64,000 nt of DNA, taken from assembly GCF_000003815.2 (NCBI RefSeq), contig NW_023365706.1:167127-231126 (forward strand), read 5' to 3'. Of the stretch, positions 10,884-52,645 are shown piece after piece. Position 1 is the first letter of the stretch. Each line of letters opens with the position of its first letter. The notes beneath the pieces are model-generated. The model did no database searches. It was not told the origin of the DNA and worked only from the letters and a program-made list of their open reading frames with translations. The DNA comes from Branchiostoma floridae. Its lineage: Eukaryota > Chordata > Leptocardii > Amphioxiformes > Branchiostomatidae. Position numbers and translations under genes: made by a program.

Positions 10884-13800
10884 ATGGCCTCCAACCCGGT
10901 GTACGGACAAGACCCGAAGGGCACGGATCCTGATACTGACTTGCGACCAGCTAGCATGCAGCCATATGTTGTTAGCACTGTCGAGAATGATGCTGGCATA
11001 TCCGGATCCGGGAATGATGCTGGCACATCCGGGAATGATGCTGGCACATCCGGGAATGATGCTGGCACATCCAGGAATGGCGCTGACACCTCCGGGAATG
11101 ATGCTGACACTTCCGGAAATGATGCTAGCATGTCCGGGAATGATGCTAGCACATCCGGGAATGATGCTGTCACTTCCATGACCATACCCTATAAAGGTAA
11201 AGCTACAACCCAGAGCGGACAGGGAAAGCACACTATTCAAACAAACAGCGATACATACATGTGCCATACCCTTGCGATGAAGACACGTTCGAAAGATACC
11301 AAGACCAAGGCGCCCATTCAGAAAAAAATAATGGCTTCAACCAGCAAAGAAGATTTCCCAGTTCACTTAGCAGGACGTGATAGAGCCGAGAACAGTGCTG
11401 AGGCTCCAGCCCTTTCCGGGGGCGGCGGTACCATGCACGAGTCTCCACATCCTCCAGACGAAGCCTCCGTGCCCATAAACCCCCAACCTAACCTCACGTA
11501 CGAGCACATGTACAACCCGTGGCCCTCTGACCCCATGCGTGCACAATACGCCTCCAACCCGGTGTACGGACATGACCTGAAGGGCACGGATCCTGATACT
11601 GACTTGCGACCGGCTAGCATGGAGCCAGATGCAGTCAGAAATCAGGAGGAGGATGCTGATGATAATATTGACCATCAACCAGCTATGATGGAGCCATATG
11701 CCGTCAAATATCAGGAGGAAGATGATGATGATGATAAAGACCATCGACCAGCTAGCATGCAGCCATATGCCGTTGCATATCAGGAGAAAGATGATGATGA
11801 TGATAAAGACCATCGACCAGCTAGCATGGAGCCATATGCCGTTGCATATCAGGAAAAAGATGCTGATGATGACTCTAGCCTGTCACATGAAAGAGGAGCT
11901 GCTTGCACTTCCGGGAATAATGCTGGCACATCCGGGAATGATGCTGGCACTTCAGTCCCACGAAGTAATGACAGGAGCAGACGCGGCACTCGCAAACCCA
12001 AGCACGCACAGGGTGTTCCACACGGTCCTCGGGAAGCAGCTGGCGGTAAGATGATATGTCTACATTAACGACGTACTTGTACTTCAATTTCAAGGGGAGT
12101 CAAGTAAGTTTATCGACGCCATTTTAATTTTCTAATTTTCCTCCAGGCACCACACCCATGCAGCAGACTGATTGGCAGGCACGTGCCGACGCCGCTGCGA
12201 GTATACCCAACCCTATGTACGCCCCCGGAGCAGGTAAGACTTTATAATACTTTGTCAGATTCGTCGTACGATTGCCGTACGATAACAAGCTGATTACGTT
12301 CCTGAGTCGCGAAGGTGCTGTACAAGCTTTAGCTGTCTTGTTACGAAATGACACCAACTCGACTGCAAATGCAATACAGACAAATCTGATTTCTTAAGCA
12401 AACTATCGACGTCATCTTAATTATCAGACAACAACAAACGGTCCAAAAACTTCAAAGAGCACATCATACAATAATTAAACTTTTTTCTTTTGGCAGACGG
12501 TTGTAATGTACTTTTTTGTACTGAGTTATTTTTGATTTGCCTATTTTGCATGAAAATTAAGCTGTATATGTAATTTCCAGCACGAAAATTGGACGAACCC
12601 AAATTTTCGACTGTCCATTTCCGGTCTTTCTCAGTCTTTGTATGTCTTTGACAAAGACTGGAGTTTGGCACTCTCGTGTTAATTTTCGTGTTGGAAATTA
12701 AAGTTCAAAGTTTTGAAAAAAATCCTTGTTTTAAATCCTCTTATTTTCTAACAGACCGCACGTATCCGGGTGGAGCAAGCGGCCGCTGTGCTCTCTGCAG
12801 CTTCATCCGCTCCCAGCTTATATACATGGCCGCGGGTATTGCCGTGCTGCTTAGCCTGGTTGCTATGGTATTTGCCCTCCTGGCGTTCATCAACAATGGG
12901 GTAAACAAACACTCCCGTATCATAAAGGCCTGTTGTAAAGCGATTTTTCCGACACAACTTCTGTTCTGTCTATTGAGTTCATCAAGCCATATCTTTCTGT
13001 TTTTCCATATTGTTTTTTGACGTTTGGTCTGACGTACATTTATACGTCTATACGTTTGTAGGGGATATCTGAACTATCCACCACTGTTGACTCCTTGAAG
13101 AGCAACCAAGACAACACGTCCACTGCTGTTGACGCATTGAAATGTGACCAAGACGACATGCGCCAACTGTCCACTACTGTTGACGCCTTGAAGCGCAACC
13201 AGGACAATATGTCTGCCTTTGTTGATGCCTTGAAACTCGACCTGGACAAGGAACGAAACCGAACCGCCGCCTTGGAGCAGCGTCTTTACAAGTTGCCAGG
13301 TAGGTTTTTAGCTGTCAAATGTACTATTTATGATGGCAACGTCAGTAGTATAACAGCAGGAAAGTCTGTCACTATCATTACTTCATTAATGCTATATTTA
13401 CCTTATCAACAATTCCCATACCTACATGATTTCTAGCATGAATGAAGCACGCACACATGTGTGGTATTCAGTATCATCTTATTTACTTCATCAATAATGT
13501 CCTTACATGTACATGTGTATATATGCCTGTTATGTTTTACTTAGTTGTTCACTAAAACCATTTACTAATTATGCTGGTATTGAATAAAACTAATGGGAGA
13601 TATGGCCTTCTGATGCAGTAAATGTAATGGTTTGTCAGTGATGCGATTCTGGAACATTTGAAATATCACCAATATTTGTTTACTTGTTCATTAATTTGTT
13701 TCGCACTTAGATAAAATAAATACATGACAATGAATTTTGAAACTGCACATAATGATGCATAAGTTTCCAATTCTTATGTATAATTATGCATACGTTCAGG

Positions 13801-16800
13801 TTATATATAATTATGCATAAGTTTCCAATGGTTATGCATAATTATGCATAAGTTTTCAATGGTTATGCATAATTATACATAAGTTTCCAATGGTTATGCA
13901 TAACTATTTATTGAGGTCACCTGAGTGGCGCCGAATGGCAGCTCGCTCCAGACGCTTGCGATTTAGCCCCGCCTATTGTAAGCTCCTCGCAATTCAGCCC
14001 CTGGATGCCAGGCCCACCCAATAACCCCCCCCCCCCCATATGACTACATTTATGGCTTTTTATTTTTACTCTTACAAGTGTTTTTATAAAAAAATAGGAA
14101 AGTGGTCAGATGTATCAGTCACTAAGAGGCCTGATACATAAGTGTCGTTCAGGAGTTGGAGGTACTCAAATTTGGCTGGCAAAATTCGATCCACTTGGTG
14201 GTTGGAAACGCTACGGGCCAGTGAGGTCTGTCTGTTAGCACAGGGTTCTTTATATTGGAATTCAAAACAAATGTTTACTTTGATTTTCTTTTTTTTAATC
14301 GTTTTCTAGAGGAAGACTGTGCCGAGTACCAATCATCAGGATGGACAACAAGTGGAGTCTACAGAATCGGCATTCTCCCTACTTATATGAAGGCGTACTG
14401 TGACATGGATACCGCAGGTAGGGTTTTTTTGCAAAACATGGCAAGTTATGCCTTTACCTTTTATTCTACATGTGTGTGCGTGTGCGTCTGTGTGTGTGTG
14501 TGTATGTGTGTGTGTCTGTCTGTCTGTGTCTGTGTGTTTGTATTTGTGTGTATGTTAGTGTGTGCGTGTGTATATACGGGCGTATGTGTGTATGGATTAT
14601 TGTATGCATATTTGTGCGCGTGTGTTGTATGTTTGTATGTATGTATGTGTGTGCGTGTATGTTTTCCCTTTTCACTAACAAATTGCTTACATTTTTTCCT
14701 ATTTCCTACCTTTTATTCTACATGTGTGCGTGAGTGCTTACATTTCTGTCCTATTTGCTAACCTTACTTTCTCCCCACAGGAGGCGGTTGGACCGTGATC
14801 CAGCGGCGGCAGGACGGGTCGGTTCCCTTCAACCGGACCTGGGAGGAGTACAAACTGGGCTTTGGGAACAAGAACGGGGAGTACTGGCTGGGGACCGAGA
14901 ACATACACTTCCTGACCAATCAGAAGAACTATCGCCTACGGATTGACCTAAATGACTGGAACAATCAATCACGCTACGCAGAGTACAGCACCTTCAGGTA
15001 AGTCATACACTTTCAGGTGAGTCAAACACCTTCAGGTGAGTCAAACACCTTCAGGTGAGACAAACACCTTGAGGTGAGTAAAACACCTTCAGGTGAGTAA
15101 AACACCTTCAGGTGAGTAAAACATCTTCAGGTGAGTAATACACCTTTAGGTGAGTAAAACACCTTCATGTGAGCAAACAGTGCACAGTTCTTCTGCGACA
15201 GGTAGTGTGCAACAACAAAAAAGTGACGAAAGGCTTCCGAGGGTCGACTATATTTGAATTTACTAAGCCAAGTTGCAATGCGGCGTACCGTGGAATTTTC
15301 TTTATAATTGGCTCGATTACTCGCAAGGCTTACTAGTATCTCATTTGACAATATCAGTTGTGTTTGCCGATTTTATCCACTTCAAAAAGGCCTGTTTTTT
15401 GCGCATTATTTTCTATTTGTAGAAAATATTGTAATTTCCCTCTCATTTTTCCAAATTAGAGAAGTTGAAGGATCGGAACTCAGTCTTGTACCTGAAGGAA
15501 TATCCTCTCACCCCATATACAGTTATTACGCTTCAGGATAATTCCCTGGTAGAGCTGGTCGCTAGACTTCAGGGTGTGTCGCCTCCAATTGAAACCCCAA
15601 ATAAACTGGGGTGTGCTCCCTTAAAAGCACCCATCCTGAAAAAAGTATTAGCCATGACAGCGAACAAATTGCATTTTTCCCATGAAAGTGTGTAGCCCCG
15701 AACCGGATTTCGTAAGCTTTGATATGATTCCATGCTGTCATATAAACGAACGGATTTGCCCCCCTCTCCAAGCCTTCCCCGCAAACACGGTCGCAAAGCC
15801 TTCGAAGTGTGTGTGCTAAGCATAGATTACATAACATCTACCGAAACATTGGGTTTTCTTCTACTGCATTCTTTGGGGCACATGGAAATAGCATCTGTAT
15901 GTTTCAAAGTTGCTCCTAGATCGAGGAGCAGATGTTTTCCTATGAAAAAAGCCATTTTTGTACTTTCCTTTCGAATCAAGTGTCAAGTTCGGTGTGGCGC
16001 TAGTTCTCAACATTGAGACAAATAACTGACACTAATCAGAAGATACACCCCAAGGTCTGTTTATTTAAAGACACTGACACCAAACTGTACAGCCTTATCT
16101 TAGCAGATGTCCTTTTTATTCCTCCATAGCAGCGAGAAGCACAGCAAAATTCTCCATCCTAACCAAAGATACAACATCTAACCTAAAGTTCTTGATCAGG
16201 ATCCGGACTGGTTCGCGTGGGGTGTGCAGGAGGCCATCCAGATCCGTCGACAGAAGAGCACTTTGAATAAGGACAGGGGGCGCCACTATCTGAGACCTGT
16301 GTATGACTGTGTCTTGTCACGTGACAATGTCCATCAAACGTCACGTGACAGAGAAACTCCAAGATGAGATCCCCGGGTTGACGAAGAGACAGAGTTCGTC
16401 TCGAAAGCTTCCCCAAGCTAATTGAAATTTAGTTGTGTGTATGTTGTTTAAATCTTTGTCAAAAGTAAAACATATAACTTTACTTTTCTACAAAATAAAA
16501 GGAACCTGGTCTAACGAAAACGCTTGAACAGGAATGCTAGGTCTATTCTCTACCAGATAAGAGCAAAGATTAACGTTTTAGGTGCATCCCGTTGAAATGC
16601 GGAACTTAAGACTGCATCATCCACACTTTAAAACATAGGTTAGTGGCAAGCATTTCGACTTCATGATCTTAACTACGTCTTCTATGTGTTTTTTTTTCTA
16701 TTCCAGTCAGAAATAGAAGGAAAGTGTATTCAATCGCAAGAGCGCCCCCTGTCGTTCCAACATGGCGCAGATGACGTCAAATTAAAAGCCTGACACATCA

Positions 16801-17418
16801 AGCACGCATTTATGGACTAAAACCTCTTCCTTAGGAGGGGCGCCACTATCTTAGACCTGTGTATGACTGTGTCTTGTCACGTGACAATGTCCATCAAACG
16901 TCACGTGACAGAGAAACTCCAAGATGAGATCCCCGGGTTGACGAAGAGACAGATGATTGTGCAGCCTCCAATTGAAACCCGAAATAAACTGCGGTGTTCT
17001 CCCTAAAAACCTGCAGGTGAGTAAAAAATCTTCTGGTGAGCAAAACAACTCTGTAGTTGATATTTGTTTGATATTCCTATCCAGGGTTTCCGGTGAGTCG
17101 GACGGATACCGGCTGCACATTTCCGGGTATTCGGGCACCGCGGGAGACTCCATCACATTCTACGACAACGGGTATATGTTCTCCACTGTGGACAGGGATA
17201 ATGATGGCTGGGCCGGCCATTGTTCTCAGCAGCATGGACAGGGTGGCTGGTGGTTTGGGAGTGGCTGTGGTCACTCCTTCCTCAACGGCCGCTACCTGGG
17301 CAACTGTGGGAACTCCTGTCCAGCCTTGCAAGGTGCAAACGCGCAAGGTTTGATGTGGGTCCTCTGGAGAGGCGGGCGTTACTCCCTAAAATATGTGTCT
17401 ATGAAGATCAGGCCATAA
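10884..17418 (+). CDS. Gene A: type II membrane fibrinogen-related (FReD) receptor
   Basis: Seven exons join in phase: 10884-12045, 12147-12233, 12755-12900, 13062-13299, 14310-14417, 14781-14997, 17085-17418; 763 aa. There is no signal peptide. The long N-terminal tail (1 to about 437) holds GNDAGTS repeats and repeated MEPYAVAYQE-type blocks with Asp runs. A juxtamembrane RCALC precedes one transmembrane helix (about 438-462). A coiled-coil stalk with STTVDALKRNQDN repeats (466-545) leads to a FReD (546-763) with GGGWTVIQRRQDGS, the calcium-site DRDND, GWWF, LNGRYL and the SLKYVSMKIRP end. Tail-TM-coil-FReD is the layout of vertebrate FIBCD1, a type II receptor for acetylated ligands. A pattern-recognition role is inferred. 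The ATG was chosen because no in-frame upstream exon is visible; an extra 5' exon is possible. Confidence 0.85.
10990..11185 (+). repeat. Coding 21-bp minisatellite (GNDAGTS heptapeptide)
   Basis: About nine copies of gggaatgatgctggcacat-type units encode GNDAGTS and variants in the cytoplasmic tail of gene A. A further short run (NNAGTSGNDAGTS) lies at 11908-11958. The unit is a multiple of three, so copy number can change without breaking the frame. Long minus-strand frames here are shadows of this repeat. Confidence 0.85.
11600..11880 (+). repeat. Coding repeat with Tyr motif and Asp-rich block
   Basis: Four diverging copies, 66-75 bp each, encode the order R/Q-P-A-x-M-x-P-Y/D-A-V-x-x-Q-E-x-D followed by Asp/Lys-rich residues. 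The tyrosines sit as PYAVKYQE and PYAVAYQE. They do not fit a strict ITIM (no I/V/L at +3) but could be phosphorylation sites. Confidence 0.75.
13740..13912 (+). repeat. AT-rich intronic minisatellite, about 32-bp unit
   Basis: Repeats of ggttatgcataattatgcat plus aagtttccaat within intron 4 of gene A. Each unit carries the palindrome TTATGCATAA, similar to POU/octamer half sites. Confidence 0.75.
14466..14665 (+). repeat. (TG)n-rich microsatellite
   Basis: Intron 5 of gene A. tgtgtgcgtgtgcgtctgtg and similar runs produce the Cys/Val-rich frames on + and Thr/His-rich frames on -, which are not genes. Confidence 0.9.
14987..15176 (+). repeat. 19-bp array repeating the splice-donor junction of gene A exon 6
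   Basis: The exon end and donor, caccttcag|gtgagt, are repeated with an exact 19-bp period: GT sites at 14998 (used), 15017, 15036, 15055, 15074, 15093, 15112, 15131, 15150, with a decayed one at 15169. Each unit reads GTGAGTAAAACACCTTCAG or close. Reading past the first donor gives AGG TAA, so use of any later donor truncates the protein after STFR. The homologous intron of gene B has the same kind of array. Confidence 0.92.
15177..15625 (+). mobile_element. Degenerate copy of the TTAA-flanked MITE at 35312
   Basis: Starts CAGTGCACAGTTCTTCTGCG and ends AATAAACTGGGGTGTGCTCC next to CTTAA, matching both ends of the 35312-35974 element. The 5' TTAA is lost. It lies in intron 6 of gene A directly after the donor array. 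Another copy of the right-end sequence is at 16962-17008. Confidence 0.65.
16275..16952 (+). repeat. Pair of about 115-bp direct repeats
   Basis: Positions 16276-16390 and 16838-16952 are almost identical. Each contains GTCACGTGACAATGTCCATC followed by AAACGTCACGTGAC, two palindromic GTCACGTGAC sites. They flank about 450 bp of otherwise unremarkable intron sequence in gene A. Confidence 0.85.
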
Positions 17419-20390: not shown

Positions 20391-20393
20391 CAT

Positions 20394-21570
20394 CTGTATC
20401 TGTATCTATATAGCCGGTATAACCGCCGTTCGGCGTAACACACCAGCTTCTGTATCTGTATCTATATAGCCGGTATAACCGCCGTTCGGCGTAACACACC
20501 AGCTTCTGTATCTGTATCTATATAGCCGGTATAACCGCCGTTCGGCGTAACACACCAGCTTCTGTATCTGTATCTATATAGCCGGTATAACCGCCGTTCC
20601 GCGTAACACACCAGCTTCTGTATCTGTATCTATATAGCCGGTATAACCGCCGTTCGGCGTAACACACCAGCTTCTGTATCTGTATCTATATAGCCGGTAT
20701 AACCGCCGTTCCGCGTAACACACCAGCTTTTGTATCTGTATCTATATAGCTGGTATAACCGCCGTTCCGCGTAACACACCAGCTTCTGTATCTGTATCTA
20801 TATAGCCGGTATAACCGCCGTTCCGCGTAACACACCAGCTTCTGTATCTGTATCTATATAGCCGGTATAACCGCCGTTCCGCGTAACACACCAGCTTCTG
20901 TATCTGTATCTATATAGCCGGTATAACCGCCGTTCGGCGTAACACACCAGCTTCTGTATCTGTATCTATATAGCCAGTATAACCGCCGTTCGGCGTAACA
21001 CACCAGCTTCTGTATCTGTATCTATATAGCCAGGATAACCGCCCTTCCGCGTTACACACCAGCTTCTGTATCTGTATCTATATAGCCGGTATAACCGCCG
21101 TTCGGCGTAACACACCAGCTTCTGTATCTGTATCTATATAGCCGGTATAACCGCCGTTCCGCGCAACACACCAGCTTCTGTATCTGCATCTATATAGCCG
21201 GTATAACCGCCGTTCGGCGTAACACACCAGCTTCTGTATCTGTATCTATATAGCCGGTATGACCGCCCTTTGGCGTAACACACCAGCTTCTGTATCTGTA
21301 TCTACATAGCCGGTATAACCGCCCTTTGGCGTAACACACCAGCTTCTGTATCTGTATCTACATAGCCGGTATAACCGCCCTTTGGCGTAACACACCAGCT
21401 TCTGTATCTGTATCTACATAGCCGGTATGACCGCCCTTCAGCGTAACACATCAGCTTCTGTATCTGTATCTATATAGCCGGTATAACCACCCTTCAGCGT
21501 AACACACCAGCTTCTGTATCTGTATCTACATTGCCGGTATGACCGCCGTTTGGCGTAACACCCCAGCCTC
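20394..21570 (+). repeat. 56-bp tandem array, about 21 units
   Basis: The unit runs ctgtatctgtatctatatag, CCGGTATAACCGCCGTTCGG, CGTAACACACCAGCTT and repeats head to tail with a 56-bp period. Variants such as CCGTTCCGCG and CCCTTTGGCG are spread unevenly; the right third has its own variants. CGCCGTTCGGCG can form a small hairpin. The unit is the head of an interspersed repeat whose single copies lie at 9165 and 37011. It ends about 320 bp before the gene-B ATG. Confidence 0.95.
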
Positions 21571-21887: not shown

Positions 21888-24800
21888 ATGGCGAGTGCCG
21901 TACTGCTCGCTGTGTTGGCCCTGTGCGTTAGTTTCCCTGCCCGAGCCCAGGATGTTAGACCCCACCAGGAGTATGCAGATAAGGGCTACTGTACCTACAC
22001 CTATGTGGTTCCGCCTGGGTCCCGTACTGGGAGCTTTTCTCCGCCACGTCTAGAGGAACAGCTCGCCGAGACCAAGGAGGAAACGGGCCGCTTGAAAAAT
22101 CAGGTGGATCTCTTGGTGCAAACCTTGCTGGGTCTGCAGTCAGTTCTCACGTCCAGGGTGGACAGTTTGAGCGCTGAACTGTCAGAGGAGAAAGTCAGGA
22201 GTGCACAGCTGGAACAGAACCTGACACAGGAGCTACAGGAACAAGAAACCCGTCTCCAAACCCAGGTACAGAACCTGACCCAGGAGCTACAAGAACAAGA
22301 AACCCGTCTCCAAACCCAGGTACAGAACCTGACCCAGGAGCTACAAGAACAAGAAACCCGTCTCCAAACCCAGGTACAGAACCTGACCCAGGAGCTACAA
22401 GAACAAGAAACCCGTCTCCAAACCCAAGTACAAAACCTCACACAGGAGCTACAAGAACAAGAAACCCGACTCCAAACCCAGGTACAGAACCTGGCACAGG
22501 AGCTACAAGAACAAGAAACCCGTCTCCAAACCCAGGTGCAGAATCTGACCACAACCTTTTACGAGCATGACGTGATCATCAAACAACTGCTGCAGGTGAG
22601 TGACAAAATTCTATCTTTATTCCTGTTCATACTGCACAAAAGTAAACCCTTAAGCATGGCTTGAATTAAGCCTCCATAAGAGCAGTCATATTTTTTCGTG
22701 CCCAGAAGGTGGGACTGGTGAACTCAGCCGAGTGTCGGTCACTCGCGGTCAAAACCAGAACGATTCATAAGAATTGTGTTGTCCTGAACAATAGAGGATT
22801 CACCACAGTTGGAAGAGGGCCCTGCCGGACTGTTTTTTGGCTCTCTCGTGTGGCCCCGTGGGACACCTTGCGGCTTTTTGAGTACGTACGCCTTGGCCCT
22901 GGGCTCATTTTGACTCCGTTTTAGTTGTTTTCTTGTGTGTGGCTTTGGAGCCAAACCGGGACTTCATCCGACACGGGATCCCTTACAAATGTACCATAAA
23001 CAAGCCCTACGTCTTTCAGGTTCACTCGAGCGTCCGGAGGTCAATATGCATATGTCTTGCGCGCTTGTATAGTGCCAGCACGAGTCACACTCCGTTAAGT
23101 TCACCCTCGGTCATTTTTTATCAGACCGGCCTATAGTGTACCCCTGTTACTGTGATTAGCTGCACTATATGAAGTTGCACTGTCTTTCAATTTAACCCTA
23201 TCCAGACTGGGCTTGTTTGGATTAGCTTGTCGGGGGGGGGGGGGGCTTTATAATTTCCGAACGGCTTACTCTACGATCACCAAATTCGCAAGGGGTGATG
23301 TTCTCGTTGATTTTTATAATTTGTGAAAGTTTGATATCATTATAACGTAGTATGACGTAATTGTGACGTCATGGCTTGTTTTTGTTGGGGAATTCCATAA
23401 TACCTAAAGATATCACACAAAAAGTTACCAATAAAGGGTTTCTTATGAATATTCAAGTCTTCTGACTTTTGTTGTCAAAGTTTAATTTAGAAATTTGTGA
23501 ATTTTGTAAAATATGCCTTACAGAAACCCACTACCATGGCACGAAATATTGTAAACGTATTATATTTTCTGTAGCTTGTTGCCAAGAAGAAAATCCTATC
23601 GCAAGCCGTAAAGGAGTTATATACAACGTCAAAGTTGGCGCAGGCACTTTTAGCCTCTCCCCCCGTCTGGATAGGGTTAAAACTGTGATGATCATGCCTT
23701 TGGGAGCCTCGTGTACAATTTCTTACCACGTGTACTGAATGATTCACAAATAGACAATTCCTCAAATCCTTCAATTCAAAAAGATAACAAGCCCCCCTTT
23801 GGACACACTTCAGTGAAGTAATACCTCAAATTAGGTAAATTAGGCATTGATTTGTATGATTTGCAGGGGTGATTTCTGAAAAATTACATTACTTATAAAA
23901 CAGCTGCAATTCACAACATGCATGATCTCGCACGTACGGGCTATCGACAAGTCAAACTACATACGCATGCAGCAAAAGGATCTTGAGATACAGCTGCGAA
24001 CAGCATAACCATCCGGACTCAATCAGGGGGTGATTCTCCTTCCTGGAGTAATGACGTCATGTTTCCCACCTTCCATGTTTGTGTTCTTGTGAGTAGCTGG
24101 TACCGGATGACGTCAGCACCACGCTGCCTAGTGACGCAGTGCCCAACACTGTCGCCCCAATAACTGGGATGACGTCACCTATGGAGATACAGCCTTCCAC
24201 TGGAAGCGCCGAAAGTAGAGCAGCTGAGATCACCACAACAACTTCAGCCACTCCTGGCGCGGCGCCTGTAATCGGTGAGAAATCTACAGTCTGTATAGAT
24301 TAGAACATCTAGTGACATGTACTGTTTGCTCTCCTTTTGTAAGAAATTTACAATGAATCTTTTTATTTCTCAATGTTTGGGAATTGAAATAAAATACATC
24401 TCTCGTAACGACCATCTAGCTACCTGCCCATCTGTCAGTCAATCTTTTTTTCTTCTCCCCCCTCTCTCTCTCTCTTTCTGTCTCTCTCGCGATGATGATT
24501 ATGCAGTGTCGTTTTTAGGAATGCAACTTCAAATCCGTCTTGTTGGCGGGTCTACTCTGCTTGATGGCCGAGTGGAGGTCCGAAACGGTACCGGCCAATG
24601 GGGCTCCGTCTGTGATGACAACTTTGACCTGCAGGACGCTCATGTTGTCTGCAGACAGCTCGGCTTCGGGGCGGCCCTGGAGGTGAAACCGGCGGGTCAT
24701 TTTGGGGAAGGTTCGGGGAACGTCTGGCTGGACGAGGTGGCCTGCAGGGGCATCGAGACGAACCTTGGAGACTGTCCTGCTGACTCCTGGGGACGGAGTG

Positions 24801-27800
24801 ACTGTTCACACAAGGAGGACGTGGGGGTCGTCTGTGCAGGTACGGGCGGCTAAGATATAGAAAACATTATGGGAAGGTTTGGGTGATACCTACGAAGCAT
24901 TTGTGCCAAATTAAAGACCTTTGTTGTAACAGAAGCAATACACATTGCCCAAAACGGAAAATAGAATATGTTTTGTTGTGCCCAGGAAACGCAGCTCTTC
25001 GGCTGGTTGGCCTTCCGGCTCCCTGGAAAGGACGGCTGCAAATCCGGCCGTGGCGAGCGTTAGAGTGGGGTGCCGTGTGCAACACCGGCTGGACCGAGGC
25101 TGAGGCCGGGTTCGTGTGCAGACAGATGGGTTATACCGGCGGGGTGACGTCATCTGGGCAGGCAGACATCGGAGAAGGGTCGGAGAACATCTGGCTGGGT
25201 GACGTCACCTGCAGCGGAGACGAGACCAACATCCTGTCCTGTGACTTCAGCTGGGAACCTTCTGACTGTGATCATAGCCAGGATGTACAGATCATCTGTA
25301 CAGGTTAGAGACACATACATACATTAGTTCGCGTCATTAAATAGGTCAGCCATATAAAAATTATATGATCTAGAAAATAAGGCTAGACATGTTTAGGTTA
25401 TGTCGAGCAGGTGAATAGAAAATTCAGTGTCAATATTTTTTCACAACAAGTGAAGGGGAAAGTTGATGATTTATCAGTAGTTGTGATGGCACATATACAG
25501 GTGGTGTGTCAGTCCGCCTTACTGGCAGCCAAAGTCCGTTACAAGGCCGAGTGGAGGTCCGGAATCGCCATGGAGACTGGGGGACGGTCTGTGGTGACGG
25601 GTTTGACGACAGGGACGCCCAGGTGGTCTGTAGACAGCTCGGGTATCGGGATGGAGTCGCCACGGCAGGAGGAGACTTCGGAGAAGGGACGGGAAACATC
25701 TGGTTACAGAATGTCGACTGCAGCGGGGCAGAATCTTCTGTAGGTGACTGTCAGATTCAGAGTTGGGGCAATCAAGACTGCAGCCACAGTCAGGACGCAG
25801 GGGTCGTCTGTACAGGTATGGAGTTTACGTTACATCTGTTATGCAAAGTCGTTACTTTGTTTTTTTGTATTTACAAATGCAGAATGGCATTGCCTTTACT
25901 GACATCTTTACCATAAATAACATTCAGGATTAGTCTTCATTTACGCATACATTTGGTGGTTTCATGTAATATGTTAGTTTTCAAGAGTATAAAAAAATGA
26001 CAAATGAAATAGCTGTCATCTATCGACTTTCTTTTATAAATTCTGCAGAATCAGTTTGATGACTGAAGTAAAACGGTTAAAATAGTAATTGATTAAGGAA
26101 TGTTTTTAACTTAAACCATCTCAATAGAACGACAAGTATTCAATGATAAGATGCCCTCCTATAATCTTAGGTGCCGTGTCCGTCCGACTTACCGAAGGCC
26201 AGACTTTATCAGAAGGCCGAGTGGAGGTCCGGCCCGGAAATGGAGACTGGGGGACGGTCTGTGATGACGGGTTTGACGACAGGGACGCCCAGGTGGTCTG
26301 TAGACAGCTCGGATATCCTACAGGAGTTGCAAGGGTGGGGGGAGTTTTTCCAGAAGGAACAGGAAACATCTGGCTGGACAATCTCAACTGCACGGGGAAC
26401 GAGTCTTCTGTAGCGGACTGTGAGATCAACAGGTGGGGAGACCACGACTGTACCCACAAGGAAGACACAGGAGTCGTCTGTGAAGCAGGTATATGCTATA
26501 GAATCATGTACATCTTTTGTTCTAATGTTAACTGTAATTGAAGCATATTGTCGGCATTAATATTGGAAAAAAATTTTTTTTTACTTAGGCCATGTTGGTT
26601 TGATCTTTGATGACATATGCGCGAATCAGCTTTCATCCGTTTCCAAAGAAAAAAGTTTTGGACCGTACTGTAAATCGTATAATGCAGTTGTAAAATGAGC
26701 ACATATATATCGAAAAAAGACATGATAGTGTCATAGAATGCCAAAGTAAATTCAAAAGTTAAAGAAGTAGGTGTAAAAGAACAAAAATGGAGATGTTTTT
26801 TGGTATACGATACTCTGTATTTAGTCATATTTTCATCCTTCTTGACCGCATCTATAGATTTCATAATGAAGGCAATTTCTTTTTGGCTAAACTTTTATTT
26901 CATTTACACGCTCGCATCGGTTTTGGGGATCCCAGAGAATGCCATCCAAATAATCAAATCAACATGATCTTATTAACCATTTTGTAGGGGAAGACTGTGG
27001 CAAGTATCATTCGTCAGGATGGACAACAAGTGGAGTCTACCCAATCGTTCTCGGACTCCCCGCTGATGTGGAGGCGTACTGTGACATGGATACCGCAGGT
27101 ACAAATGTTGTGAAGCATGGTGGTCTGTCGTGTATATGGTGTTTCTTGATAATGTCGTGTTTCTACATTTATTTGTTCATGCGTATGTAATATTGTGTAA
27201 AAAAAGAAGAAAAAAATTAAACTTATTTGATCATAAAGGCCTTCAACTTTGGCGTGGTGAAATTATGAATGTTTTTGTTGAATATGACTATGAAGTTCAA
27301 TTTAAAATTTCTATAATCACTACTTGCTTCTCCCCACAGAAGGCGGGTGGACTGTGATCCAGCGGCGGCAGGACGGGTCGGTTCCCTTCGACCGGACCTG
27401 GGAGGAGTACAAACTGGGCTTTGGGAACAAGAACGGGGAGTACTGGCTGGGGAACGAGAACATCCACCTGCTGACCAATCAGAAGAACTATCGCCTGAGG
27501 ATTGAACTTTTGGACTGGCAAGGGGAGTCATGGTGGGCAGAGTATAGCACCTTCAGGTGAGTAAAACACCTTCAGGTGAGTAAAACACCTTCAGGTGACT
27601 AAAACACATTAAAGGGATCAAAAATAGCACCTTCAGGTGAGTAAAACACCTTCAGGTGAGTAAAACACCTTCAGGTGACTAAAACACATTAAAGGGATCA
27701 AAACAACTATAAGTGAATAAAACAACTTCAGGTGAGCAAAACCCCTTAAGGTGACTAAAATACCTTCAGGTGAGTAAAATACCTTCATCCATATGTGTTC

Positions 27801-28211
27801 GTGTTGATGTCTGCGTGTACTTATTTTGTGTACGTAATCATTATTAGCAGAATCAAACAGTTTACTTATTTTCTTAGTTTGATGTTCCCATCCAGGGTGT
27901 CCGGTGAGTCGGACGGGTACCGGCTGCACATTTCCGGGTATTCCGGCACCGCGGGAGACTCCATGGCTTACCACAACAGGCAGAAGTTCTCCACTGTGGA
28001 CAGGGACAATGATGACTGGAGCAGCGGCCATTGTTCTCTGCTGCGCGGACCGGCCGGCTGGTGGTTTGGGAGCTGCAGCCAGTCCCTCCTCAACGGCCGT
28101 TACCTGGGCAACTGTGGGGACTCCTGTCCATCCTCGCAAGGTGTGGTGTGGTACCACTGGAGAGGCTATCACTACTCCCTGAAGTCTGTGTCTATGAAGA
28201 TCAGGCCATAA
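21888..28211 (+). CDS. Gene B: secreted coiled-coil / 4xSRCR / FReD protein
   Basis: Nine exons keep phase: 21888-22595, 24097-24274, 24519-24839, 24986-25303, 25501-25815, 26171-26488, 26988-27098, 27340-27556, 27896-28211; 933 aa. A signal peptide (1 to about 20) precedes a CTYTYVVPPGSRTG motif and a coiled coil to residue 236, including six copies of an 18-residue repeat. Exon 2 is a Ser/Thr/Pro-rich, probably O-glycosylated linker. Exons 3-6 each encode one SRCR domain with six Cys (V-C, VVCRQLG, C, DC, DCSH, VVC). Exons 7-9 encode a FReD with GWTVIQRRQDGS, DRDND and SLKSVSMKIRP. A soluble multimeric ligand-binding protein is inferred. The join from exon 1 to exon 2 is the least certain (1.5-kb intron, phase 0 on both sides). 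Confidence 0.82.
22205..22545 (+). repeat. Coding 54-bp repeat (18-residue coiled coil)
   Basis: Six near-identical units encode NLTQELQEQETRLQTQVQ. Hydrophobic residues fall at positions 2, 6, 13 and 17, and 18 residues equal five helical turns. Nearly every unit starts with an N-L-T glycosylation sequon; one reads N-L-A. Cys/Trp-rich frames on the minus strand here are shadows. Confidence 0.92.
23192..23680. mobile_element. TTAA-flanked MITE with piggyBac-like ends
   Basis: TTAA at 23192-23195 and 23677-23680 flank 481 bp whose ends are CCCTATCCAGAC and GTCTGGATAGGG, exact inverted repeats. TTAA target duplication and CCC-starting termini are hallmarks of the piggyBac superfamily. It encodes no transposase and lies in intron 1 of gene B. 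Confidence 0.75.
27547..27785 (+). repeat. 19-bp splice-donor array of gene B exon 8
   Basis: caccttcag|gtgagt is repeated after the used donor (GT 27557): GT at 27576, 27595 (gtgact), 27637, 27656, 27675 (gtgact), 27732, 27751 and 27770. A higher-order duplication of 80 bp (27547-27626 and 27627-27706) includes the exon end. Reading through the first donor gives AGG TGA, a stop, so later donors would remove the C-terminal half of the FReD. Confidence 0.92.
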
Positions 28212-29760: not shown

Positions 29761-30269
29761 CGATGACTGAACCGATTTACGTCTACTAGTTACCTTGTAA
29801 CTAACATGAAATAACTGAAGCGGGTATTGATTTGTGAGTCGCAAATTTCATGTAACGCCAGTTCACCTTTATTCGTTGGGTAACCTATATCCGTTGCTCT
29901 TAAAACAGGGTATTTGGGATTATCACGGACGTTAGTTTCAAATTGCGATATTTTCAGGATATTGCAGTATAAAACTACTAACCGTCGACTTGATGTACCC
30001 AAATGTATACCCAGTTTTCAAAAAAGCAACGGATATAGGTTACCCATCTGATAAAGGTGAACCAGCGTTAGATGCGAACTATTTGATCCCTGTAGATACA
30101 GCCCACCGTAATACATACCTGTATGTGCTGGAGATGAGCCAAACGTCCGACCGGTCGGTCAGAACCAGGTGTGGCGTACATGTAATTCCTTCACAGATAT
30201 TTCCAGAGACATTTATTGCACTAAAGCTAGTCATCTGAAGTGTAAATGTATAATGAAATATTTCGTATG

Positions 30270-31605
30270 AGCTGGCATCCAGTATTAGCTAAGTTACATG
30301 AGTTTACCCTGCATTACATTGTATGCAATTTCAATAAATCTAAGATCTAAATCTTTCTTGTTAGATCATCAAGGCAAAGCAACTTTGACCCAATATGACC
30401 CTCCTTTCCTTCTTTTGACGTGTGCTGGTCATCCAGACGAAAATCATCCAGCACAGTACGACCGACTGTCCATCTAAGCTATCAGAATAGGGTTTGATGC
30501 AGTGTCTTTGTGGTTCGTATGAATGTTAGTGCCACTTTGTGGCACTGTAACTGAGTAGATCAGCGAGTTTGCAAAGAGATCACTGGTTGCAGTACCTTTG
30601 CATGCCGTAGAGTGTCTCCTTTGTGCCGTGCTGACTGCAGGCACTGCATTCTTAAACTTGATACCACCCCCCTCCCACCCGATAGTCACAGCCAAGAATG
30701 AGATTATGCCTGTGCTGGAGGTGAGCCAAACGTCCGTCAGATCGCTGTCAATCAGGTGTGAGGTTGTTCCTTAACTCAGCTTCCTCCGAAAGTACCCATT
30801 GTACTAGATATAACCAGCTTTCTTCTTAAGATTATCAAGGCAATAGAAAAAGATGTTAATAATGTTTAATGTGTGGACAACATTCAACGCCCCACCCTTC
30901 TCCAGTCGAAGCTTGGCAATCATCTGCCGCAGGTGTTTTAGTTTACTTCCTCCAAAATGGGGACCGTCGTGTGCTCACTGTCTTCCTTCTTCCGTCAGTT
31001 TCTTGCCTGAGCCCAGGATACGCTCCATGTGAAATTCCACCATTTTTGGAAATCCCCGTTGCCATATAGCAACTGGTAACCACAGACCTAAAAATTTCCA
31101 TTATTTTCATTTGGGGCTACCGACACAAAATTGAGAAAAGTCGATTTTTAAAAATAGGTTGGCCACCTAATGGTAAGTTTTCACATTACAGAGCTTCTTA
31201 ATGTCTTCTCATGTGGCAGCAGATTTTAAGAACGAGATGTTCCAAGCCTTGAACCAATTACAATAATACTAATGTTTTGCTGCGTCTTTTACAAAACATA
31301 ATAGATCTGGTGGGAAAACAAAATTTGATGTTGCCTGTATTTTTGCTTCATATCAAGTCGTAAAAACTGTTTGCGACATTTCGAAAATATCAATAGTAAC
31401 GAGCCACCTGTGCTGGTGTGACGCAGTTTCTTCCAACTTCCCCCAAGAAAATTATTGTCTTTAACTCAGCCCCCCCCCCCCCTCTAAAATAAGATCAAGG
31501 CAAAAATCAGAAAAATGCTGGTGACGATTGGTTTGTATATGTGGTCAATTTTACACACCGCCCTTCCCCAGCCCGGGCAATTTTCAATGATAACGGGCCA
31601 TCTGT
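30270..31605 (+). repeat. Segmental duplication R2, copy 1
   Basis: About 1.3 kb aligned almost throughout with 48010-49312, including a dead first exon at 30957 and the poly-C run with its flanks. Small indels separate the two copies. Confidence 0.85.
30957..31025 (+). pseudogene. Dead copy of the gene-B-type signal-peptide exon
   Basis: Preceded by caggtgttttagtttacttc and ctccaaa like the live genes. It starts ATGGGGACCGTCGT, then shifts frame relative to the intact copies and stops at TGA within 20 codons, although the CTGTCTTCCTTCT and GAGCCCAGGA landmarks are still recognisable. The downstream CTYTYVVP region is absent. Confidence 0.8.
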
Positions 31606-32037: not shown

Positions 32038-32847
32038 ATGGCGATCGTCGTACTGCTCGCTGTCTTCCTTCTGTCCGGCAGTTTCCCTGCCGGAGCCCAG
32101 GACACCAGAACCGACCAGGCTGGGTCCGTCCTGCGGGAGTATGTAGACAAGGGCTACTGTACCTACACCTATGTGGTTCCGCCTGGGTCCCGTACTGAGG
32201 GCTGCACACCGCCGGGCCTCGAGCGGCAGCTCGCCGAGACCAAGGAGGAAACGGCCCGCTTGAAAAATCAAATGTCGTCGATGTTGAGTCAGCAGTTCGA
32301 TCTCACGTCCAGGGTTCAGAACCTGACACAGGGTCTGCAAGAGCAGAAAACACGTCAGCACGGCCAGATAGATAGTCTGTCAGAAGAAAGAGTCAGGAGT
32401 GCACAGCTGAAACAGAACATAACAAGGAAGCTAGAGGAAGAAGAGTCTCGTCTCCAAACCCTGATACAGAATCTGACACAGGAGCTACAAGACCAGAAAA
32501 CAAGTCAGCAAGGCCAAATAGACAATTTGTTCAATAAACTGTCAAAAGAAAGAGTTAGGAGTGCACAGCTGGAGCAAAATCTGACACGGGAGCTGCAAGA
32601 ACAAGAAACTCGTCACCAAACCCAGGTACAGAATCTGTCCGACAAACTGTCCGAAGAACAAATCAGGAGCGCACAGCTGAAAAAGAACTTGACGCAGAAC
32701 CTACAAGAACAAGAGACCCGTCTCCAAACCCAAGTACAGAATCTGACACAGGAGCTACAAGAACAAGAAAGTCGTCTCCAAGCCCAGATGCAAAATCTGA
32801 CTTCAACCTTGTACGAGTATGACGTGATCATCAAACAACGGCTGCAG
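32038..32847 (+). CDS. Gene C: intact orphan first exon (signal peptide plus coiled coil)
   Basis: From ATG 32038 to a consensus donor (CAG|GTAAGG at 32848) there are 270 codons ending in phase 0, the same phase and end (DVIIKQRLQ) as gene B exon 1. It has a signal peptide ending AGAQD, the two-Cys motif CTYTYVVPPGSRTEGC, and a long coiled coil of varied LQEQETRLQTQ-type repeats with many N-glycosylation sequons. No linker, SRCR or FReD exon follows on the + strand in the window before the next paralogue. Either the partner exons lie past the right edge, which would need a very long intron, or this is an exon stranded by segmental duplication. Confidence 0.6.
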
Positions 32848-36066: not shown

Positions 36067-36960
36067 ATGGCGATCGTCGTACTGCTCGTTGTCGTCCTTC
36101 TGTCCGGCAGTTTCCCTGCCCGAGCCCAGGACACCAGAACCGACCAGGCTGGGTCCGTCCTGCGGGAGTATGTAGACAAGGGCTACTGTACCTACACCTA
36201 TGTGGTTCCGCCTGGGTCCCGTACTGAGGGCTGCACACCGCCGGGCCTGGAGCGGCAGCTCGCCGAGACCAAGTAGGAAACGGGCCGCTTGAAAAATCAA
36301 GTTGACATTTTAAGCGATCGGTTAGAAAACCTGACACAAGAGCTACAAGAGCAGAAAACAAATCAGCAAGCTCAGATAGATAGTTTGTCTGAGACCAAGG
36401 AGGAAACGGGCCGCTTAAAGAACCTGGCACAGGAGCTACAAGAACAAGAAACCCGTCTCCAAACCCAGGTACAGAACCTGACACTGGAGCTGCAAGAACA
36501 AGAAAGCCGTCTCTAAACCCAGGAACAGAACCTGACACTGGAGCTGCAAGAACAAGAAAGCCGTCTCCAAACCCAGGTACAGAACCTGACACAGGAGCTA
36601 CAAGAACAAGCAACCCGACTCCAAACCCAGGTACAGAACCTGACACTGGAGCTGCAAGAACAAGAAAGCCGTCTCTAAACCCAGGTACAGAACCTGACAC
36701 TGGAGCTGCAAGAACAAGAAAGCCGTCTCCAAATCCAGGTGCAGAACCTGACACAGGAGCTACAAGAACAAGCAACCCGACTCCAAACCCAGGTACAGAA
36801 CCTGACACTGGAGCTGCAAGAACAAGAAAGCCGTCTCCAAACCCAGGTACAGAACCTGACACAGGAGCTACAAGAACAAGCAACCCGACTCCAAACCCAG
36901 GTACGGGATCTGACTGCAACCTTGTACGAGCATGACGCGATCATTAAGCAACGTCTAAGA
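36067..36960 (+). pseudogene. Pseudogene D: first exon with three nonsense mutations and lost donor
   Basis: The sequence follows gene C from ATG 36067 through the two-Cys motif, then breaks at TAG 36274-36276 (GAG to TAG by comparison with paralogues). Two further in-frame stops at 36514-36516 and 36676-36678 are CAA to TAA changes inside the 54-bp coiled-coil repeat. The two changes are identical, 162 bp (three repeats) apart, so one probably spread by repeat duplication. The end (cgatcattaagcaacgtcta) lacks the CAG|GTGAG donor of B and C. Long minus-strand frames here are shadows. Confidence 0.85.
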
Positions 36961-38005: not shown

Positions 38006-40590
38006 TAATAATAATAATAATAATGATAATGGTTTATTGGGTTCATTAAAAGTACAGATTCGCAGGACTGGCCCTGAATTGCTCATGTACTAACGTAGAT
38101 AGTTGTAACATGGACAACATAACGAGGACAATTAAAATCGTTTACAGAAATCAAACGTATTAAAATATATACAGATTTATATACAGATTCGGTTGACCGA
38201 TAAAATCGACAGATAAGTTAAAAACGGCACAGTTCATGAGTTCAGTAGTCGGACGATGTGCGGAATGGTACTGTTCTTATACCTCTCCGTCCTGGCATTG
38301 ATAGTGTTCAGTTTGTTGTGAGATCTGGTACACCGTCCACTGGTCTCACCTCGGGTTGGTGGGAGCCACTGTCGGAATGTTGTTGATTGCAACAAGGTGG
38401 AGCCGAACTTCTTAGTAAGCTGTTCCCGTCGTTGCTGGAGTGTGGGTAGTCCTAGACGGTCACATGCTTCCGAGTACTTTGAGTAGCTTGTACCGAGGAT
38501 AACTCGACAGGCGCGACGCTGAATGCTCTCTATCTGGGCTGTTTGGGTCGACGTAAGGCCAGGACTCCAGACGGGGCAGGCATACTCACACAGCGGACGC
38601 ACGTAGGTTATGTAGACAGTGACCAGGTCAGGTACGGGAAGTTTGAATCTTTTGAGATGGCGTAGGAGGAAGAGTCGTCTGCTACTCTGACTGATGATGT
38701 GGTTCACGTGGCCGTTCCATTTCAGGTCGGACTGCACTATCACCCCTAACAGCTTGGCAGCGGTGACTTGCTGAAGGGCGTGACCATCAATCTACAACGT
38801 TGGGAGGGGAGGGGGAACTTTTGCAAACCATACGTGCATAACTTGGCATTTTTTTGGGTGCAGTTTCATATGGCTGTTAAAAGTCCACTGTTCCAAGGCA
38901 TTGAGGTCGTGCTGCAGGAGTGAGGGTTCATGTACAAGTCTGCTTTCGACCATTGAAAGATCGTCCACGAACTTCCAGTTTTCCGATCGGCTATCGTTGG
39001 CGGCGCTGTTAATCATGGCTACGAAGATGATATGAGCAAGGACAGTGCCCTGTGGCAAACCGCAGGTAAGTATCTCCCATACTGAATAAGAGCCCTGGTA
39101 CAAGACACGTCACCTCTCAGTGAGAAAGTTGCATATCCAAGCTGCTAGTGAAGGTCTACAGCCTAACTCCAGCAGCCTTGTCATAGCGGTCGTGTGTTCA
39201 ACGCGATCGAACGCCTTGGAGAAATCGGTAAGGACCATGCTGCTAACTGTTCCTCTCCGGTCCGAGGTGGAGCTGAGATGGTGTAGAATATCTACCAGGC
39301 AATGTGTTGTTGATTTCCCAGGCAGTCCGCCAAACTGTTTAGGATCGATGTTGGGGTTGATGTCTGACAGTGTCCACTTGGCTACAAATCCTTCGCACAC
39401 CTTTGCTAATATTGAGGTGACCGAGACTGGTCGGAGATCTTCCACAGTCGGGGGTCTAGTTTTGGGGATAGGAATGACGGTTGCTTCCCTCCATTCACTA
39501 GGAACACGGCCTTCGTGCAGGGATGTATTCAGGATACGCGTCAGTGGCTGGCTGAGTTCATATGCAAATTCCCTTATCAACCGCCCCGTGATGTTGTCCG
39601 GGCCGGCCGCCTTCCGCACACGTACCCTCTGCAACCTGTCGTACATCTCCCATACTTCCACCTGTGGTGGTTGTGGTGCAGGTAGGAATGCGGGCAGGTG
39701 GCTGATGTCCAGAGGGGGTAATGACTGTGTTATTTTACTCAGGTTAGCATTGATGGCGTCGGCAGTAGCTTTGTTGTTGTCTGGAGCGACTCCGTCGAGA
39801 TGGATAACTGGGTTAGATTTGCCAATGTTGGCCATCGTCTTAATGTCCTTGTGCCAGTTAGCTGGGTCGTGTCGTCTTAAGTTCTGTACCTTGCTACTGT
39901 AGAAGTTCTGTCTCGCATGTTGGATTTTTGCTTGTAGTTTGTTGCGTAGATTTTTCCATTCCGACTTCTTTCCGTTGTGGAGAGCTTTTTGACGTAGGGT
40001 TATGAGATTCTTTATTTCAGGAGTCATCCATGGTTTGTCCTTATTGTGAACTCTGATACGGCGGGTTGGGAAGTGTTCAGAGATTTTCTGATGAAGTGTG
40101 TTGTACATCGCTGTTGTCATGGCTTGGCTTCCCTTCTCTTGTGTGATCTCGGGCCAGTCATACGATGTGATCCAGGCACCAAAAGAGCGCACTTTGAAGC
40201 TGGCATTGGACGAACGGTTCTTTTGTTAGTTCTGTTTGATTTTGTTTGTTGTTTGGGTCGGAGGACAACAGGTTGGTGATCACTCATCCCTAGTGGTGCG
40301 ATAACAGAGCATGGGTTGTAGAAACGTCCTAGGTTGGTGATAATCAGGTCCAGAATGGCATCTTCCCTTGTGGGGTGTTGACTATCTGTTTCATGTTTCT
40401 GTGTTCTGGCACAGATTGTGGACATCCATTCTGTTGAAGTCTCCTCCAATGTAGAATCCAATGTCGGTGTACTTGGCGCGCAGTTGGTCGATAGGCGAGG
40501 AAGGAAAATAGTTTCATATGATGTTGCAAGTACCGTCTTTGTCACAAGTGGACGGACTTGTCGTGCCATACTATGCGTACGCTTATTTGA
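38006..40590 (-). mobile_element. Damaged, 5'-truncated non-LTR retrotransposon (Jockey/CR1-like)
   Basis: Minus-strand frames in order: 40569-40117 (endonuclease C-terminal part with GMSDHQPVV), 40192-39110 (linker and RT with KAAGPDNITG, FGGLPGKSTTH and TDFSKAFDRV), 39103-38792 (LPQGTVL and the catalytic FVDD box) and 38743-38234 (RT thumb and tail with YVRPLCEYACPVWSP). At least two frame breaks and a stop near 39105 kill it. The N-terminal half of the endonuclease is missing. The 3' end finishes in an (ATT)n microsatellite (38007-38030), usual for CR1/L2-type elements. The exact clade is not resolved here. Confidence 0.85.
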
Positions 40591-40689
40591 TTAACGCTAG
40601 TTAACCCTTATTCGTTGCATTTTTCATTAAGAGTCAGCTTATTCCAATCTGGCAGAAGAACATAGCATAATTTCTGTCTTTAACATAGT

Positions 40690-47469: not shown

Positions 47470-48002
47470 TGAGGTTCGACTATGTACGGCGCCCAAAATC
47501 ATATCGATTCGAGCTTTCATCACAGCCCACCAACACAACAAGTATGAAACCAATCCATCCAGCCGTTCTTGAGTAATCTTGTACACAGAAAATAATCTTG
47601 TACACAGAAAATATAACCTCCATGACATTTCATGGAGGTAACTACTGTGCCAACTGTTACAAATATTTCAAACAGTCCTTAGCAGACATAAATAAAACTA
47701 CTGGGGGTTCCCCAAACAGCTGTCACCTCACTATCTGCTTGCAGCTAAGCCCATTAACAAACACATACAGCACGATGCCTGTACCAATATATTTCAAATA
47801 TAGGGGTGATTTCTGATATTATTACATCGATTATAACGACAGATACGGCTCCCAAGATCTCATCGATTCGAGCTTTCATCACACCCCACCAACACAACAA
47901 GTATGAAACCAATCCATCCAGCCGTTCTTGAGTAATCATCTACACAGACAGAGACACATAACAGAAAATATAACCTCCATTCCATGACATTTCATGGAGT
48001 TA
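47470..48002 (+). repeat. Two direct copies of a MITE-like repeat
   Basis: 47478-47640 and 47846-48000 share tcatatcgattcgagctttc-type starts, ccaatccatccagccgttct and a terminal acctccatgacatttcatgg palindrome. The same palindrome type occurs at 9688. The element is non-coding. Confidence 0.8.
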
Positions 48003-48009
48003 AATATTA

Positions 48010-52150: not shown

Positions 52151-52645
52151 ATGGCGAGTGCCGTACTGCTCGCTGTCTTCCTTCTGTCCGGCAGTTTCCC
52201 TGCCCGAGCCCAGGACACCAGAACCGACCAGGCTGGGTCCGTCCTGCGGGAGTATGTAGACAAGGGCTACTGTACCTACACCTATGTGGTTCCGCCTGGG
52301 TCCCGTACTGAGGGCTGCACGCCGCCGGGCCTCGAGCGGCAGCTCGCCGAGACCGAGGAGGAAACGGGCCGCTTGAAAAATGAAGTGGATCGCCTGTCGT
52401 CGCTGTTGGAGACTCTGCTGTCAACGGTGGACAGTTTGTCTGCTGAACTGTCGGAGGAGAGAGTCAGAAGTGCACAGCTGGAACGGAACCTGACACAGGC
52501 GCTACAAGAACAGAAAACAAGTCAACAAGGCCAGATAGACAGTCTTTCCACCCAACTGTCAAACCGTGCAGAGCTGCAGCAGAACCTGACACGGAAGCTA
52601 CAAGAACAAGAAACCCGTCTACAAACCCACCCCTGTAAAAATTAG
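52151..52645 (+). pseudogene. Gene E: first exon truncated in its coiled coil
   Basis: ATG 52151 opens a signal peptide (MASAVLLAVFLLSGSFPARA), the two-Cys motif CTYTYVVPPGSRTEGC and about 100 residues of coiled coil close to genes B and C. At 52629 the repeat (CGTCTACAAACCCA) breaks into unrelated CCTGTAAAAATTAGCCCGTC sequence and the frame ends HPCKN at 52645. There is no DVIIKQ end and no donor. It could make a secreted short coiled-coil peptide, but a broken exon is more likely. Confidence 0.7.

Follow-up and report, generated by a model that had tools for sequence, protein, structure and literature searches.

Angiopoietin-like proteins (ANGPTLs) are described as a coiled coil, a linker and a fibrinogen-related domain (FReD) in that order (PMC5237311); in the FReD of FIBCD1, Tyr405, His415, Tyr431 and Trp443 form an acetyl pocket whose base is Ala432 and which includes the Asn413-Cys414 cis bond (PMC3908420); and in SRCR8 of SALSA ligand binding depends on a cation held by D1019, D1020 and E1086 (PMC7043408). 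Lancelets are reported to acquire new domain pairs at a higher rate than other animals; their exon shuffling favours 1-1 exons, and their fast-evolving receptor families include SRCR and FBG (PMC4284660). A greater variety of SRCR combinations is reported for amphioxus than for comparable animals (PMC2575513). Here we describe a gene of the lancelet Branchiostoma floridae, at 21888-28211 on the plus strand of a 64,000-nucleotide stretch (the window; positions 167127-231126 of contig NW_023365706.1, C148 below), which joins an angiopoietin-like N-terminal half to SRCR domains and a FReD in one predicted secreted protein, and belongs to a tandem multigene family on that contig.

The gene runs from an ATG exactly at 21888 to a stop codon exactly at 28211, and its nine GT-AG exons join in phase without a stop (0/0, 0/1, five times 1/1, 1/2 and 2/0, in order), bearing out the agreement of splice phases noted in a preliminary description of this DNA. 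Exon 1 (21888-22595, an open frame with the donor GTGAGT) encodes a leader, a CxYTYxVP motif and a coiled coil of 18-residue repeats; exon 2 (24097-24274), a Ser/Thr/Pro-rich linker, is the phase 0-to-1 adapter; exons 3 to 6 encode one phase 1-1 SRCR domain each (SRCR1 at 24507-24839, SRCR2 at 24986-25303, SRCR3 at 25501-25815 and SRCR4 at 26171-26488); and the FReD is spread over exon 7 (26988-27098), the conserved exon 8 (27340-27556; maximum-likelihood omega, the ratio of nonsynonymous to synonymous change, 0.16) and exon 9 (27896-28211), which holds the calcium site and the hypervariable pocket and ends at the stop codon. As exons 3 to 6 share phase 1-1, isoforms that skip SRCR exons are to be expected. 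The preliminary description had proposed a domain search of the product, and Pfam returned SRCR (PF00530; exon 3 onwards) in four stretches with E 7.5e-113 and Fibrinogen_C (from exon 7) at residues 724-937 with E 1e-68. Splicing, Pfam and recurrence in the genome agree on the single predicted secreted protein that it had put forward, with the order leader, coiled coil, Ser/Thr/Pro linker, four SRCR domains and one FReD. The 933-residue length given there is possible with an exon-3 acceptor 12 bases downstream of 24507; 937 residues, with exon 3 starting at 24507, is favoured, since the residues at the disputed start (S/T-F-x-G) are found in nine of the 12 aligned units, this gene included. 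No Ig family appeared in a Pfam scan of the product up to E 1, and neither the sequence nor Pfam revealed a collagen-like region before the FReD; Rfam gave 0 matches and NCBIfam nothing above its cut-off. Directly upstream of the gene lies a 56-bp tandem repeat of twenty-one copies (20393-21567).

The N-terminal half has features of its own. The exon 1 leader is hydrophobic, with a Kyte-Doolittle value of 3.39, and no other 19-residue window of the product exceeds 1.6. The coiled coil is encoded by a 54-bp tandem repeat of 6.2 copies, corresponding to an 18-residue unit with core residues Leu, Leu, (Thr), Leu and Val, whose spacing of 4-4-3-4-3 reads by eye as one hendecad plus one heptad; a PDB search with an exon-1 profile gave at best E 0.023, the hits being apolipoprotein and other largely helical proteins. 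Compared with ANGPTL1 and with ANGPTL2, the N-terminal motif outscores 2000 of 2000 shuffles in each case, and compared with ANGPT1 it outscores 1993 of 2000; that of a paralogue at 32038 beats 1993, 1999 and 1997 of 2000 against ANGPTL1, ANGPTL2 and ANGPT1. The ANGPTL layout of signal peptide, coiled coil, linker and C-terminal FReD is present, with the peptide judged by hydrophobicity only and the coil by its repeat only, and it is broken by the four SRCR domains standing between coiled coil and FReD, where ANGPTLs have no extra domain.

The linker holds 26 Ser, Thr or Pro per 60 residues, a richness equalled by 19 of 765 open 59-residue stretches of the window. Exon 2 is the sole open 0-to-1 exon to pass our filters within 22596-24500; by itself it is weak, with 11 of 128 in-phase exon pairs of the window open. 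We accept it because similar exons with fitting splice sites recur in seven of 11 paralogous units (eight of 12 with this gene; in unit m5 by a weak match), and the idea that it is spurious was dropped once these appeared. A chance origin of the exon 1 open frame is rejected on its 29 matches in the genome.

These matches come from a search of the 513 Mb assembly (431 contigs) with the first 110 residues as query. On the 452-kb contig C148 itself, 237 kb were read besides the window; the balance of about 151 kb is made up of three sizeable blocks and a short terminal piece. A protein search of C148 placed the units at 57-153 kb, in runs on the minus strand, and at 189-382 kb, in runs on the plus strand; within these runs the order is exon 1, often a linker, SRCR exons and three FReD exons. 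We modelled 12 units (m1-m7, the gene described here and p2-p5). SRCR domains number three in four of them, four in five and five in two, and in m4, which contains an assembly gap, three are seen. Eleven of the 12 have exon 1; that of p2 did not appear in the stretch searched, with a match to exon 1 located 13 kb further upstream. A further unit, p1, beyond the modelled 12, retains the coiled-coil end of a partial exon 1, two SRCR domains and FReD exons 7, 8 and 9. Counting this gene and p1, exon 1, SRCR and FReD are co-linear in 12 C148 units. Of the 29 exon-1 matches, 18 are on C148, 11 of these in modelled units, and candidate donors are present in nine of the 11 copies. The others comprise one each on C11, C8 and C6, two on C13 and six partial ones on C14; on C11, C8 and C6 SRCR and FReD exons follow exon 1 on the same strand (these loci were partly read, and exon 8 of C6 lies outside the part read). 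Many loci carry exon 1, SRCR and FReD in this order and on one strand, so the architecture is not a product of chance. That C148 is an alternative haplotype of another array is disfavoured, the best exon-1 match elsewhere being 78 percent identical. The window also holds three orphan exon-1 paralogues on the plus strand: one at 32038-32844 with an open frame and its donor kept, with no SRCR or FReD match downstream in the window; one at 36067-36950 with stop codons and its donor lost; and a truncated one at 52151-52627. Two more short leader-like relics, at about 30957 and at 48680, sit in a 1.3-kb duplicated block (30256-31596 versus 48002-49314, 91 percent identical).

The most striking variation in the family lies in the FReD. 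Among solved structures the whole domain is best matched by Angiopoietin-2 (1.4e-60), and exon 9 of the paralogue p2 is better matched by FIBCD1 and tachylectin 5A than by angiopoietin. We placed the FIBCD1 pocket on exon 9 by alignment to 4M7F and to a reference segment, so that Tyr405, His415, Tyr431, Trp443 and Ala432 correspond to exon-9 columns 53, 64, 82, 94 and 83, and Asn413-Cys414 to columns 62-63; pairwise alignments voted 9/12 for column 53 and 10/12 for columns 82 and 83. In the gene itself the putative pocket codons are those equivalent to Tyr405 at 28044-28046 (an assignment uncertain by one codon), to Asn413, Cys414 (kept) and His415 at 28071-28079, to Tyr431 and Ala432 at 28131-28136, and to Trp443 at 28167-28169. 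Four of the five acetyl-pocket side chains of FIBCD1 are replaced, and the remaining position carries Tyr, like ficolins. Because of these replacements an acetyl-specific, FIBCD1-like lectin is unsupported, and of the two classic pattern-recognition folds seen in the preliminary description both are present, the FReD with its FIBCD1-type side chains altered. The scaffold, in turn, is well kept: 56 of 107 exon-9 columns are invariant, and in a wider set of 47 exon-9 sequences the Asp pair of the calcium site occurs in 47/47 and the disulfide Cys in 47/47 and 46/47.

Pairwise ratios of nonsynonymous to synonymous rates (dN/dS) over C148 units, in sets of 9-12 sequences, set exon 9 apart. Seven other regions fall between 0.33 and 0.48 (SRCR1 0.36, SRCR2 0.43, SRCR3 0.36, SRCR4 0.33, FReD exon 7 0.39, exon 8 0.35 and the first 70 residues of exon 1 0.48), with a highest bootstrap upper bound of 0.75, and exon 9 stands at 1.09 (codon bootstrap 0.76-1.58; 1.02 without gapped codons). 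As synonymous divergence (dS) of exon 9 (0.137) resembles that of SRCR1 (0.151) and exon 8 (0.160), the excess is on the amino-acid side. A site test comparing models M1a and M2a (our own code, with each exon's own iqtree tree, fixed relative branch lengths and no recombination model) was run on exon 9, exon 8, SRCR1 and SRCR4 of C148. In exon 9 twice the log-likelihood difference (2dlnL) was 77.8 (P ~1e-17), and omega came to 4.8 for 22 percent of the codons; in exon 8, 2dlnL was 0.0. The diversification is centred on the pocket: its six columns, the conserved Cys excluded, carry 1.35 nonsynonymous differences per pair against an average of 0.29 (reached in 0 of 200,000 permutations), and posteriors exceed 0.9 at pocket columns 62, 82, 83 and 94 as well as at 52, which adjoins 53, with columns 53 and 64 below that value.

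The same pattern recurs beyond C148. As a check 31 further exon-9 sequences were brought in. Of 50 close matches (at least 130 bits) 47 were kept; the three dropped were two interrupted by an internal stop and one lying on the opposite strand of C3. The same six columns are hot in the arrays on C3 (n=12; 0 of 100,000 permutations), C14 (n=7; 1 of 100,000) and C170 (n=7; 3 of 100,000), where 2dlnL reaches 50.9, 23.1 and 19.8 and the selected pocket columns number five, three and three of the six, respectively. Across the four arrays the nonsynonymous to synonymous difference ratio (pN/pS) at the six columns is 1.54-1.95, and in every one the site test favours a class of codons whose omega is 3.2-5.9. 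Tandem duplication, and apparent positive selection at presumptive ligand-contact sites placed by homology, the hallmarks of germline-diversified families, are both found here. A search of viral contigs with FReD exon 9 gave nothing useful, as did one of plasmids with SRCR1.

The SRCR domains show a different conservation. All four carry six Cys, giving the tandem domains with conserved cysteines that mark secreted SRCR proteins. With the equivalent of SALSA E1086 mapped by eye, the D-D-E of the cation site is kept in SRCR1 and SRCR4 in 12/12 units; in SRCR2 the Asp pair and the Glu are absent in 12/12 (one unit covering the second half only), and in SRCR3 the Glu is absent in 9/9, and the gene itself follows this in exons 3 to 6.

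Taken together, we propose that these genes form a multimeric recognition family diversified in the germline, in which the SRCR arms are nearly constant and the FReD pocket varies, a reading to which we assign a probability of roughly 0.7. The data show the structure of the gene, its recurrence in tandem, the conservation of cation and calcium residues and the pocket-centred diversification, and from here we infer secretion, multimerisation, ligands and an immune role. Briefly, the coiled coil would bring several chains together; SRCR1 and SRCR4 might hold common anionic ligands via bound cations, much alike in all members; and, with the FReD fold and its calcium site constant and the residues at the FIBCD1-type acetyl pocket differing gene by gene, each member's pocket might have its own ligand, such that the family as a whole would cover many targets. 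Multimers with near-constant arms and a variable pocket could then coat or clump microbes. A bolder version, to which we would give slightly less than even odds, is that a non-vertebrate chordate possesses a germline-diversified humoral repertoire of two-headed multimers, whose near-constant, cation-binding SRCR arms are joined to a FReD with some 16-20 hypervariable residues at and around the pocket, and that the variable FReD cassette has been exon-shuffled, in several arrays, onto a coiled coil, a coiled coil with SRCR domains or a membrane anchor. If true, its logic would be analogous to that of a variable binding domain combined with constant effector parts.

Several observations weigh against the proposed recognition family. 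Seven of the 18 C148 exon-1 matches lie outside any modelled unit and a candidate donor was not found in two of the 11 exon-1 copies, and therefore some members may be dead. The loss of acetyl-binding residues could mean that sugar binding has been lost. The site test also signals in SRCR1 (2dlnL 15.7; codons 1, 3 and 16 above 0.9) and SRCR4 (2dlnL 24.8; eleven such codons, mostly in the first quarter of the domain), and thus the SRCR arms are not wholly constant. As to exon 9, the bootstrap interval of its omega takes in 1; the site-test statistic can be raised by gene conversion within the tandem array; over the whole exon, omega comes to 0.64 on C3 and 0.75 on C14, and the excess change is therefore local to some codons; and the proportion of synonymous differences (pS) is also raised at the pocket columns, 0.27-0.38 versus 0.14-0.20 elsewhere.

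The same data bear on rival explanations. One holds that the pocket is out of use and its residues drift under relaxed constraint, with the fold kept for stability; this would agree with a pairwise omega of exon 9 near 1 and with the replacement of most FIBCD1-type pocket residues, and we consider it unlikely in the face of pocket-column pN/pS above 1 and the high-omega codon class in all four arrays, and of the invariant columns, calcium-site Asp and disulfide Cys noted above. Another sees a growth-factor-like signalling family of ANGPTL type that gained SRCR domains, the FReD varying under co-evolution with host receptors and not with microbes. The Angiopoietin-2 match of the whole FReD, the N-terminal motif that outscores every shuffle against ANGPTL1 and ANGPTL2, and the described order of ANGPTL parts all speak for such an origin; nonetheless, signalling ligands seldom come in many tandem copies that combine added SRCR domains with a diversified pocket, and exon 9 of p2 lies closer to FIBCD1 and tachylectin 5A, making this too an improbable account of the family.

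The preliminary description had itself named the case that would undo it, namely two genes, exon 1 and the linker in one transcript and SRCR-FReD in another with a first exon of its own. Orphan exon-1 copies do exist, three of them in the window, with neither SRCR nor FReD match, and at 23298 in intron 1 there is a 15-codon hydrophobic ATG frame with, by eye, a donor-like GT inside. Set against these, the 11 ATG frames of at least 15 residues in 22596-24500 reach a hydropathy of at most 2.66 compared with 3.39 for exon 1; exon 2, the phase adapter needed between exon 1 and SRCR, recurs; and exon 1 precedes SRCR-FReD in the 12 C148 units and on C11, C8 and C6. This co-linear recurrence across the genome favours one gene, and we regard the division into two as highly improbable.

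The FReD also occurs with other partners. A neighbour gene in the window (12652-17415, plus strand, outer limits approximate) encodes a probable membrane segment (hydropathy peak 2.85), a coiled coil and a FReD having the same three exons and intron positions as the gene described here, with dS of 0.22-0.26; it lacks SRCR domains, as do three FReD-only places on C148. The C3 array (32.77-32.99 Mb, with two more copies at 30.2 Mb) has an SRCR match within 5 kb upstream on the same strand for nine of 13 minus-strand close FReD exons (positions compared by hand), 150 of 459 SRCR candidates having been scored, and has no exon-1 match. In the C14 array (0.83-1.01 Mb) four of seven close FReD exons have a coiled-coil match no more than 5 kb upstream, and no SRCR falls in that range among the candidates scored. 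The C170 array keeps the hypervariable pocket and, again among those scored, has no SRCR partner. As the neighbour gene, C3 and C14 differ upstream of the FReD, a single FReD cassette is combined with several kinds of N-terminal module. Since its N-terminus and FReD resemble angiopoietins and ANGPTLs, our gene looks like one of ANGPTL type with phase 1-1 SRCR exons added; the simplest history would be that an angiopoietin-like coiled coil-linker-FReD gene gained SRCR exons in a phase 1 intron, and loss of such exons elsewhere is equally possible. In both FReD genes of the window a 19-bp tandem repeat (27540-27787 and 14981-15177) starts at the exon 8 donor and reiterates the exon-8 end and splice donor many times, such that alternative donors are on offer.

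Elsewhere in the window, a single open frame at 4722-6068 encodes 448 residues with a glycosyl hydrolase family 5 domain and its C-terminal domain, and presumably an endoglycoceramidase-like enzyme; on the minus strand, 39113-43923 holds two retroelement reverse transcriptase open frames, one of 998 residues with an endonuclease domain.

Three points go beyond the preliminary description: the angiopoietin-like N-terminal half, the tandem family and the hypervariable FReD pocket; its comparison with vertebrate proteins was off target, the source genome being that of a lancelet. Neither this architecture nor selection on the FReD pocket is described for lancelets in the literature searched, as far as its accessible text goes, and the supplementary table of SRCR combinations in PMC2575513 may list the former. 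Given the reported 1-1 shuffling and SRCR diversity, an SRCR-FReD pair in a lancelet is not surprising in kind, and the SRCR exons described here are likewise 1-1, in line with PMC4284660. Few lineages are known to have diversified recognition repertoires that do without antibodies. The layout of this family is clean, with an invariant scaffold, a few hypervariable pocket residues and modular exons, and the variable residues sit where a relative's ligand contacts are known from crystal structures. Direct tests are possible, both of ligand differences between neighbouring paralogues and of pocket variation within populations.

Set beside known systems, the lancelet family shares with angiopoietins and ANGPTL1/2/6 the leader, a CxYTF-like N-terminal motif (of the human sequences), the coiled coil, the linker and the C-terminal FReD, and differs from them in its three to five SRCR domains, its large tandem expansion and its diversified pocket. 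Tandem SRCR domains are shared with the soluble multi-SRCR proteins DMBT1/SALSA, CD5L, SSC5D and PIT54 and with CD163, with D-D-E in SRCR1 and SRCR4 of our gene; none of these is known to carry a FReD or a coiled coil. FIBCD1, ficolins and tachylectin 5A have in common with it the FReD fold, the Asp pair of the calcium site and the disulfide Cys pair; unlike them, the lancelet gene has no conserved acetyl-pocket residues, collagen region or membrane anchor and, compared with FIBCD1 in particular, shows no second hydrophobic stretch for a type II anchor, its S1 pocket residues being largely replaced. Finally, the Biomphalaria FREPs (IgSF plus FReD) likewise deploy the FReD in a large diversified invertebrate family; by comparison, the lancelet gene has SRCR domains and a coiled coil in place of Ig domains, and its variation lies between germline genes and centres on the FReD pocket.

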